From contig JAXHMJ010000005.1 in NCBI GenBank assembly GCA_034521575.1, forward strand, positions 1,364,001 to 1,428,000: DNA of 64,000 nucleotides, given 5' to 3'. Below the pieces are notes generated by a model. The model was not told the origin of the DNA. It did not search any database and saw only the letters and a program-made list of their open reading frames with translations. The position numbers and the translations under genes were made by a program. This DNA is from a candidate division KSB1 bacterium (GTDB lineage: Bacteria; Zhuqueibacterota; Zhuqueibacteria; Residuimicrobiales; Krinioviventaceae). Every line of letters begins with the position of its first letter. Position 1 is the first letter of the stretch. Shown here piece after piece: positions 14,542 to 17,694 of this stretch.

Positions 14542-15647
14542 ATGAAGAACATGATTGTTGCCCTGATCATAGTGACGGGCTCTGCGGTTTGGGGACAGGT
14601 CATCAAATCAGCAGAAACCTGCGGTGAATGCCATCATCGCAATTTTGTTCAGTGGCAACAGTCCAGTCATTCCGGTTCCGCAACAGACCCGCTGTATCAG
14701 GCTGTCCTGAACACCCTGCCTCCTGAATCTGAACGTCGAACCCGCTGCAGCCGCTGTCATGAACCGGTTAGACATCTTGATATCCCGGCTACACTGGCAA
14801 AGGACATTGCAAAAGAAGGCGTCACCTGCGATATGTGCCATGCCGTCAACTGGCGGGAATCCTCACGTCATCATTATGTGCTGGGCCCGGAAAATGTCAA
14901 ATACGGGCCTTATGAGGACGCCGTCCCTTCTGTTCATGAACACGAATACTCGCAAGCCCTGAGTTCATCCTCCGCCTGCATCAGCTGCCATCATGATGTC
15001 GGAACCGAATCGCTGATCACCTGTTCAACCGAATCCGAGTATAAAAACAGCTCATTTTACAAAGCCGGTGTCACCTGTCAGGATTGCCACATGCCCAAAC
15101 GGGCGGGCAAGAGCGCTGAACTGGGCAAATGGCGGCAAAATATTTATTCGCATGTATTTTACGGCGGCTCGACTCCGCGTATGTTGTATGACTGCGCCAC
15201 GCTGAACGGAGAACTGAAATTCCGTGACAATAATACGGTGTTGAGTCTGAGCGTAACCAACCAGAGCGTCGGGCACGCCCTGCCCACCGGCTCCCCGCTT
15301 CGAGCGGTTTACTTAAAGATAACAGCAACATCAGAACAAGATTCTGTATTATGGAGCAATTACAAAACCAATTCCCTGAACGAAGACCCGGACGCGCTGT
15401 TTATGCGAGTGCTCAGTGATGAACAGGGGAATGCACCCTGCATCCCCACCCAGGCCCGACAGTCGTCTTTGATCACCGGCTGCAGCCGGACGAAACGCGG
15501 CAGTTCGAGTATGTCATCCCCGATACTCTGGTGGACCGCATTCAGGCCTCACTGTTTTATCGCTCATTCCCACCGACTCTGCAGGATCAGCTTAACATTG
15601 ATCCTCAGGATCCGATATTGATTCAATCAAAAACTTTTAGCCGATGA
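14542..15647 (+). CDS. Five-haem cytochrome c (c554-like), frameshifted near its 3' end
   Basis: An exported electron-transfer protein. A signal peptide (to about AVWGQ) is followed by five CxxCH haem sites: CGECH, CSRCH, CDMCH, CISCH and CQDCH, spaced as in cytochrome c554/NrfB-like families, with GHALPTGSPLRAVYL typical of the C-terminal domain. The frame that covers all haems breaks at a G run near 15426-15430. One extra G would give DEQGECTLHPHPG, then VVFDHRLQPDETRQFEYVIP, ending at a stop at 15645-15647. Without it the protein ends in an arginine/serine-rich nonsense tail at 15621. The haem domain is intact either way. It converges on hgcB. Confidence 0.8.
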
Positions 15648-15695
15648 ATCGAATCAGCGGAATTCACCGTGCAGACAGCAGTCTCAAAGCTGTGC

Positions 15696-15983
15696 TCAGC
15701 AACAGCACTCCCCACTATCGCCGCAACCGCAATTCGGCTCTGTCCCCCGAATCATTCCATTGATAACCGCAGCGGCACATCCAACTCCGCTGTTGACAGA
15801 AATAGCACCGTACACGCAATTCATCTGACAAGCGCCACATTCAATACATGCGTCCGGATCCTGAATTTTTACCGTATCCTCCACATGCAGTACATTTCTC
15901 GGACAAACTGTAGTGCACATTCCGCATGCTGTGCATCGCTGAGAATCAATTTGCAGGGTTGTGACATTTCGTAAATAATTCAT
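15696..15983 (-). CDS. hgcB: Mercury methylation ferredoxin HgcB
   Basis: A 95-residue ferredoxin that supplies electrons to reduce the corrinoid of HgcA. Two [4Fe-4S] motifs are visible: C17-x2-C20-x2-C23-x3-C27-P and C46-x2-C49-x2-C52-x3-C56. In addition there is the family's conserved lone cysteine (C69, GVGCAAAV) and a C-terminal cysteine cluster (C93-C95), thought to bind Hg(II), plus C85 and C87. The gene starts 9 bases after the hgcA stop with GAGAGGT as ribosome site. Generic ferredoxins lack C69 and the terminal cysteines, and together with the neighbour these make the call strong. Confidence 0.95.
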   Translation of the reverse strand: MNYLRNVTTLQIDSQRCTACGMCTTVCPRNVLHVEDTVKIQDPDACIECGACQMNCVYGAISVNSGVGCAAAVINGMIRGTEPNCGCGDSGECCC

Positions 15984-15992
15984 CGTTACCTC

Positions 15993-17051
15993 TCAAATAA
16001 AAAGAAAAATACCATAGAGTAAACATCCCAAAACCGCCGCAGAAATCATCGCCGGAATACCTGTTCTCAATTCCTTTTGAACTCCGGATAAGGATGTCAG
16101 TGGAGTAGAGCCGGTGAAATTCACAGCCAAATAAGACCCCAGAGCCGGAATAAGCAGCAGGTGAATCAGCCGTGTCTGAAGATCAGTTGGGAACCAATTG
16201 TCCCAGACCAATACAAATATCACAGAAACAAACGCGCCTTTGAGCGCAAACGATCGAAACGGAATCCACGGCAGCAAGACCGGAACCAGTACCGTGCCAA
16301 TGAGCAAAGCAGCAACATAGGGCATAAATACTATGAATAAATCCGGTAACAGAGAACCATGCGCCAACACATTCAAGCTGGTGAAAAACAGAACAATCAG
16401 TGCAAACCACTTGAGTGCGGGTATGAATTCCATAGGCACCAAAACGAGACGTTCCGCCAAAGTAAAATGGACCCGGCGCATATCAGTAGTGGCTTTCATA
16501 CCGTTTTCGAGAAATATCTCAACATCATCAGCATAAACAGGCCCGTACTTTACCCGAAAACCGGTTTGCTTGCGAACCGAATGAGCTGCAACTCCGACCG
16601 CACCAAGCTGCGGAACAATGACGGTCCGGTGATTGACAAGCGAGCTCAGTTTAAAGCGGTGTATTTGCGAGATCAGCGCGTCAGTGCCGAACGTGCCTTT
16701 ACCGGCAGCACACCAAACATTGATAGCGTGTGTATCCAGAACCAGAATCCACGCATTCACGTTTTCCAGTTCCCGCCGCAACGTGTCGAACGTCAGTTTA
16801 TAATTAGAGGTCACCAGAACCGGAGAATCGGCATCCGGTTCTCCCACGCCGTAAATTCCAGGCTGGACTGCATATTTCATTCGCTTAATACCCCAGCGCA
16901 CCTTCCACGCCCCGAGCCTCTCCCGCCATCCCCATTGGGTTGAGACGATCGGTACAATCCCGATCTGACTCTGTGTTTGGCGAAGAACAAAAGACGGTTC
17001 ACCAGCAGATTTGTTTTTCCGCTCTTTAAAATTAGCCTCTGCATTTTTCAT
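15993..17051 (-). CDS. hgcA: Mercury methylation corrinoid protein HgcA
   Basis: A 352-residue membrane-anchored corrinoid protein that transfers a methyl group to Hg(II), giving methylmercury. The diagnostic cap-helix motif is N111-V-W-C-A-A-G-K118, with C114 the lower cobalamin ligand. The soluble corrinoid domain spans about residues 60-215. Five hydrophobic segments follow (about 218-240, 246-272, 278-297, 303-322, 330-351), the topology expected of HgcA, so the protein is complete. The ATG lies inside the 3' end of marR (20-base overlap) behind GGAGG, so translation is coupled. CdhD-type corrinoid proteins lack both the NVWCAAGK motif and this membrane part. Confidence 0.96.
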   Translation of the reverse strand: MKNAEANFKERKNKSAGEPSFVLRQTQSQIGIVPIVSTQWGWRERLGAWKVRWGIKRMKYAVQPGIYGVGEPDADSPVLVTSNYKLTFDTLRRELENVNAWILVLDTHAINVWCAAGKGTFGTDALISQIHRFKLSSLVNHRTVIVPQLGAVGVAAHSVRKQTGFRVKYGPVYADDVEIFLENGMKATTDMRRVHFTLAERLVLVPMEFIPALKWFALIVLFFTSLNVLAHGSLLPDLFIVFMPYVAALLIGTVLVPVLLPWIPFRSFALKGAFVSVIFVLVWDNWFPTDLQTRLIHLLLIPALGSYLAVNFTGSTPLTSLSGVQKELRTGIPAMISAAVLGCLLYGIFLFI

Positions 17052-17499
17052 CCAGACCTCCGGAATTTTGTTTCTTTTGAATCGCTTCCGTCAACAGCCG
17101 CAGCCCCTCGAGCACGGTTTGTTGCTCATCCGGCATCATACCACAGCACACCGTTTCATACATCTCATTACAGAAAAAATTAATACTGTCAACAAAGGAT
17201 TTACCGTTTTCTGAAAGCGCAATTTTGTAAAAACGCCTGTCATTTGGATCAGAAAAACGAGTCACCAAATCCCGCTGCACCAGATTCTCGACCGTTCGAC
17301 TTGCCGTGCTTTTATCCAGATTTAAACGTTCAGCCAGTGCTGTGACTGTGCATTTATCATGCACGTCCAGCTCTACCAGAGCATGGCATTGTGCCAGAGA
17401 AACTCCACAGCACCCTTTATGATTTTTCAACTGCTGATCAACATGACGTTCCAAAATGCGGATATATCTTCGCAGCAACTGCAATTCAAAAGTATTCAT
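17032..17499 (-). CDS. Cysteine-rich MarR-family regulator of hgcAB
   Basis: About 155 residues, start at 17499 behind AGAGGTG. Winged-helix signatures are VTALAERLNLDKSTASRTVENLVQRDLV and the wing DPNDRRFYKIALSENG. Cysteine pairs flank the DNA-binding part: GCCGVSLAQC near the N-terminus and ETVCCGMM near the C-terminus. Similar cysteine-bearing MarR proteins occur near arsenic and other metalloid genes, so thiol-based sensing of Hg(II), As(III) or redox state is plausible. It overlaps hgcA, and two dyads just upstream are candidate operators. hgcAB elsewhere is often next to ArsR-type regulators; a MarR in this place is less usual as far as I know. Confidence 0.88.
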   Translation of the reverse strand: MNTFELQLLRRYIRILERHVDQQLKNHKGCCGVSLAQCHALVELDVHDKCTVTALAERLNLDKSTASRTVENLVQRDLVTRFSDPNDRRFYKIALSENGKSFVDSINFFCNEMYETVCCGMMPDEQQTVLEGLRLLTEAIQKKQNSGGLDEKCRG

Positions 17500-17511
17500 A
17501 ACACCTCTTGT

Positions 17512-17539
17512 TTGTAAGATACAACTAATGTAAGTTACA
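17512..17539. promoter_or_regulatory. Tandem dyad operators before marR-hgcAB
   Basis: TTGTAAGATACAA (17512-17524) and TGTAAGTTACA (17529-17539), both near-perfect dyads of the TGTAA/TTACA type, with centres 16 bases apart and 13-40 bases before the marR start codon. The position suits autorepression by the MarR protein. Confidence 0.6.
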
Positions 17540-17694
17540 ACCATTGAAATTGCAAATTCTTTCTTTTCAAAGCTCAATTTATTATAGAGAAAACAGTAAT
17601 CAGACAGATAAACTCGACAGACCGATTCATTTCGCGATCAATCGAGTAAAAGCATTATTCAGCACACAAAAGAATTGAATCGTTCTGTTGTTTA

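Follow-up and report, generated by a model that had tools for sequence, protein, structure and literature searches.

In Pseudodesulfovibrio mercurii ND132, hgcAB is reported to lie under an ArsR-like regulator and to respond to arsenic (PMC10349881), and the same paper mentions that in Dethiobacter alkaliphilus and Geobacter daltonii hgcA is preceded by MarR. The hgcA gene itself has already been published from Calditrichaeota (PMC8163782) and from KSB1 (PMC10469668, PMC7573106). Judging from its sequence, the locus studied here, within a window comprising the whole 64,000-nucleotide stretch of KSB1 DNA analysed, is a marR-hgcA-hgcB operon whose hgcAB genes are a further example of the known pair. 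The literature searched yielded no description of a MarR-operator system common to hgcAB and arsM, and for that reason the regulated operon is counted as the apparent new part. The operon comprises the following features:

15696-15983, minus strand: hgcB, ferredoxin HgcB, 95 aa (NF040864, 105.4 bits, cut-off 99)
15993-17051, minus strand: hgcA, corrinoid mercury-methylation protein HgcA, 352 aa (NF040863, 414 bits, cut-off 275)
17032-17499, minus strand: marR, MarR-family regulator, 155 aa (PF01047, 57.6 bits, cut-off 24.6)
17057-17061, minus strand: GGAGG ribosome-binding site of hgcA within the 3′ end of marR, indicating translational coupling (from sequence)
17512-17540, minus strand: putative tandem operator TTGTAACTTACAT-TAG-TTGTATCTTACAA, two TTGTA-N3-TACAA boxes with starts 16 bp apart (from sequence)

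HgcA carries the NVWCAAGK cap helix at residues 111-118, with Cys114 as the Co-ligating cysteine, and a C-terminal domain with five TM-like segments between residues 202 and 352 by hydropathy. The cysteines of HgcB (17/20/23/27, 46/49/52/56, 69, 85, 87 and 93-95, the last three forming a C-terminal CCC) include two CX2CX2CX3C motifs, together with C69 and the terminal cysteines. The earlier note had recognised the pair from these traits and named an HMM search as the check; since both proteins exceed their curated NCBIfam cut-offs, its assignments of HgcA and HgcB stand. HgcA might instead be the corrinoid subunit of the CFeSP of the acetyl-CoA pathway, or a relative of the HgcAB-like fusions, with no role in mercury methylation: the corrinoid domain is common to both, as reflected in 54.7 bits for the CdhD Pfam model on HgcA, and the PDB matches of HgcA are CFeSP subunits. 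However, among the curated models the HgcA score is five times that of the CFeSP subunit model (80 bits, under its cut-off of 306), and the HgcAB_like model (205 bits) also stays under its cut-off of 285. The cap helix, the five TM-like segments and the adjoining HgcB likewise speak against CFeSP, and the host genome (5.26 Mb, 5 contigs) contains a single HgcA match and no second, CFeSP-type one, though the same search detects such subunits in relatives. A CFeSP/CdhD identity, the kinship that the earlier note had said would overturn its reading, is ruled out by the curated model scores, and a role for this protein outside mercury methylation on either of these grounds is scarcely credible. 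Since the search that finds CFeSP-type subunits in relatives returned no second match here, the CFeSP of the acetyl-CoA pathway, the methyl donor often assumed for HgcA, may be missing from the host.

Sorting tails for type IX secretion number at least 150 in the host genome, which supports the placement of the host as an FCB-group bacterium, as the earlier note had supposed. Beside the operon, a cytochrome c554-type multihaem gene (14542-15657, plus strand) is convergent with hgcB; it shifts frame near 15440 and runs on in another frame to 15647, and because of this change it is either frameshifted or affected by an assembly indel.

The end of marR at 17032 and the start of hgcA at 17051 give the 20-base overlap reported earlier. 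The marR start formerly placed near 17539 was corrected to the ATG at 17499, because the extra codons are the operator and alignment with eight hgcA-linked relatives supports the latter start. The encoded protein has cysteines at 30/31/38/50/110/118/119/153, with CCGVSLAQCH at residues 30-39 and C153 as the C-terminal cysteine. C30 and C153 are invariant in the alignment of all nine hgcA-linked MarRs, which fall into type A (CCGV[ST]L.QCH; host, L010, L014, L016 and L002) and type B (C.GVT[LI][ST]Q; L009, L011, L012 and L021). No second MarR similar to that of the host was found in the host genome at E 0.01. An ArsR/SmtB identity for the hgcAB regulator was rejected, the ArsR-type HTH model NF033788 giving 20.6 bits against a cut-off of 55 and MarR models dominating. 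The AlphaFold2 monomer model has the standard MarR fold (mean pLDDT 86, falling to 50 in the last block, around the C-terminal cysteine), and its best structural matches are MarR proteins with Z about 16.6. PDB 8xt8, a Clostridioides difficile MarR crystallised with Hg bound, appears in the structure-search list, and a paper on it was not found in the literature search. AdcR-type and other metal-binding MarRs were not picked out among the structure matches listed, in which a missing row is no evidence. C30, C38 and H39 were weighed as the presumed counterpart of the AdcR zinc site, an equivalence that we do not claim.

The operator motif was first spotted by eye upstream of marR at hgcA loci. 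In the host, the box at 17512-17524 matches TTGTA-N3-TACAA perfectly and that at 17528-17540 has one mismatch. The host genome contains 13 perfect palindromes, of which that at marR alone has a partner at 16 bp (1 mismatch), the next best partner having 4 mismatches; since the other 12 are unpartnered at 16 bp and lie mostly within ORFs, no further host targets are claimed. For the nine hgcA-linked loci, the best 16-bp pair within the 100 bp that precede the start was compared with 2000 dinucleotide shuffles, and the summed mismatch was 32 vs 79.1 for the shuffles (sd 3.0, minimum 66). Scanning the spacing from 13 to 32 bp gave 32 mismatches at 16 bp and 59-77 at all others. The operator was individually significant in eight of the nine loci (P <= 0.008), and L014 showed no clear operator 5′ of its chosen start in the same test. 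In several loci the boxes are placed at a likely promoter or inside it (e.g. TTGACT-17-TATATT in L009), as expected of a repressor; a search of the host operator revealed no strong sigma-70 promoter.

A profile of the nine hgcA-linked MarRs was searched against 388 genomes. The top ranks were occupied by the eight from the host phylum, as expected of the profile's own members, and the next by MarRs such as L070-L084 and L090, most of which are directly followed by a methyltransferase gene. Eight of the downstream neighbours scanned are arsenite methyltransferases (ArsM) over the NF008823 cut-off; the arsM-linked MarRs are L070-L072, L074-L079, L081-L084 and L090, while L069, L073 and L080 belong to the operator-bearing set and do not lie beside arsM. 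Because the motif had been defined on hgcA loci, the arsM set tests the operator independently. The 17 MarR loci of this set, mostly arsM-linked, gave 60 mismatches vs 152.4 for shuffles (sd 4.2; each P <= 0.002), and 16 bp was again the best spacing (60 vs 95-131 elsewhere). For the distant MarRs L085, L087 and L088, which have neither the C30-equivalent nor the C-terminal cysteines, the operator was at shuffle level (26 vs 25.7); most operator-bearing MarRs keep both. We define the arsM-type cysteine MarR group by a CCG[VI][ST]..QC[HY] motif plus a C-terminal Cys, which the host MarR fits, and by the 16-bp tandem TTGTA-N3-TACAA operator, from which the host sequence departs by 1 mismatch over both boxes. 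The genes linked to the host MarR are hgcAB rather than arsM, and no ArsM over the cut-off was found anywhere in the host genome; the host protein would thus work like an arsM regulator without being one. The literature search found no characterised arsM-linked MarR and no MarR regulator of arsM with a characterised ligand. One further type-A MarR with a 16-bp operator (L113:2986-4464) lies just 3′ of an aquaporin-family channel gene, away from arsM and hgcA.

HgcA scored over the cut-off in 13 of 82 genomes of the host phylum, and marR lies directly 5′ of hgcA in eight of these 13 loci (host, L009, L010, L011, L012, L014, L016 and L021), i.e. in 8/11 with readable upstream DNA, L015 ending at a contig edge and L017 in a run of N. 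The remaining three, L018-L020 from one genus, have another gene upstream. Outside the phylum, the Spirochaete MAG GWB1_36_13 (L002) also has marR-hgcA, none of the 15 loci read in other phyla (L040-L053 and L055) has MarR upstream, and in L003, L005 and L007 the place is taken by ArsR-like genes. No HgcA over the cut-off was found in the phylum of G328; that of G188 has more HgcA loci, and MarR is absent upstream in L042 and L046, the two examined. The arrangement had been called uncommon, which holds in part only: within the host phylum it is the usual one, and the Spirochaete and the two cultured species (PMC10349881) share a MarR upstream of hgcA.

Several related arrangements were observed. 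In two type-B operons (L009 and L012) an acyl thioesterase-like gene splits hgcA and hgcB, and in a third type-B genome the two are about 2.9 kb apart with acetyltransferase genes inside the gap; split type-B regions lie at L009:225-2518, L110:3487-5708 and L108:4794-8989. At L109:4307-6337, in a genome without hgcA, an acetyltransferase gene and the same thioesterase-like gene come after a type-B marR whose operator is perfect. In L022, L023, L025, L026 and L035, all of the host phylum, a SAM-dependent methyltransferase is encoded directly 5′ of, or fused to, HgcAB-like fusion proteins. Upstream of a different hgcA (L045:810-1330) lie an AbrB-like gene for a cysteine-containing product of 106 aa and a small cysteine-rich gene, which resemble the PrlF/AbrB arrangement reported from archaeal methylators (PMC10349881).

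The type-A loci cluster with the Spirochaete in the HgcA tree (89/89), adjoining Firmicutes UBA4049 (94/98), and this makes it probable that marR and hgcA have been transferred together from one phylum to another. The HgcAs of the host phylum do not form one clade, which points to more than one origin of hgcA in the phylum. In the MarR tree, which has weak deep branches and several long rows, the type-A hgcA-linked MarRs share one branch with the arsM-linked L070, L071 and L084 (98/98), and the starred branches require at least two switches between hgcA and arsM linkage.

Taken together, these data lead us to favour as the probable arrangement control of hgcAB by a MarR repressor of the arsM type that senses through thiols and regulates its own gene, a counterpart to the ArsR of P. 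mercurii with its reported arsenic response. One or more MarR dimers would bind the two boxes beside the marR start with their 16-bp period and repress the whole operon, marR included. The likeliest signal would be a metal or metalloid that binds thiols, either As(III) or a thiophilic metal, for instance Hg(II). Its capture by the MarR cysteines around residues 30-38, and possibly by C153, would release MarR from the DNA and allow expression of hgcA and hgcB, after which the corrinoid methyltransferase HgcA and the ferredoxin HgcB would, by family analogy, methylate Hg(II). The presumed identity of the ligand is the weakest of these steps. As(III) or a similar ion is favoured because of the arsM linkage and the arsenic response of the P. 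mercurii ArsR (PMC10349881), and yet arsenic need not be the signal in this host, since it lacks ArsM above the cut-off.

Cysteines in OhrR-type MarRs sense redox or electrophiles, and the host protein could be a two-cysteine switch of this kind, in which a C30-C153′ disulfide across the dimer makes hgcAB answer oxygen or oxidants instead of a metal. The MarR fold, the mostly anaerobic habit of hgcAB hosts and the fact that C30 and C153 are the two invariant cysteines would all suit such a sensor, but the vicinal CC or C..QC cluster of most members exceeds what the switch needs, and the fact that MarRs and operators of this kind recur beside an arsenic gene, arsM, makes a redox signal unlikely. 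Lower still do we rate an ordinary MarR that responds to an organic ligand, aromatic or lipid-derived, and is linked to hgcAB by accident. The thioesterase and acetyltransferase genes of type-B operons do point to lipid metabolism, both in L009 and L012, where the acyl thioesterase-like gene lies between hgcA and hgcB, and in the marR-GNAT-thioesterase array of L109; type-A operons, that of the host included, nevertheless hold marR-hgcA-hgcB only, and their MarRs cluster with arsM-linked ones.

The thiol-based, metal- or metalloid-responsive repressor remains our preferred reading, and it bears on the purpose of HgcAB itself. With one kind of repressor and operator placed in front of either arsM or hgcAB, one might ask whether hgcAB in these lineages is a metalloid-methylation response, with arsenic or another thiophilic metalloid as native role or signal and mercury methylation as a side activity, a speculative extension that we regard as possible though doubtful. 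What induces hgcAB, and what HgcAB is natively for, bear on where methylmercury arises, and a defined repressor with a conserved operator common to arsenic methylation genes offers a handle on the metal or metalloid that releases it. If the proposal is right, two unrelated regulator families, this MarR and the ArsR of Pseudodesulfovibrio, couple mercury methylation to arsenic-type sensing.

Compared with known systems, the host pair agrees with the HgcAB families (NF040863 and NF040864) in scores over the cut-offs, cap helix, TM domain, ferredoxin motifs and hgcA-hgcB order, and differs in that its HgcA shares no more than 38-48% identity with the 32 other HgcAs in the comparison; mercury methylation by the host is suggested by gene content. 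With ArsR-regulated hgcAB (PMC10349881), of which L003, L005 and L007 represent the ArsR version, the locus shares a small winged-helix regulator gene directly upstream of hgcAB, whereas the regulator there is of the ArsR and not the MarR family and its operator is another one. D. alkaliphilus and G. daltonii have the MarR-family gene upstream of hgcA in common with the host, and the comparison is by description only, as their one-sentence mention (PMC10349881) comes without operator, cysteines or arsM link. Closest to the host MarR are the arsM-linked MarRs, which have the CCG[VI]..QC[HY]-type motif, the C-terminal cysteine and the tandem 16-bp operator, but adjoin a gene for a SAM-dependent arsenite methyltransferase in place of hgcAB.
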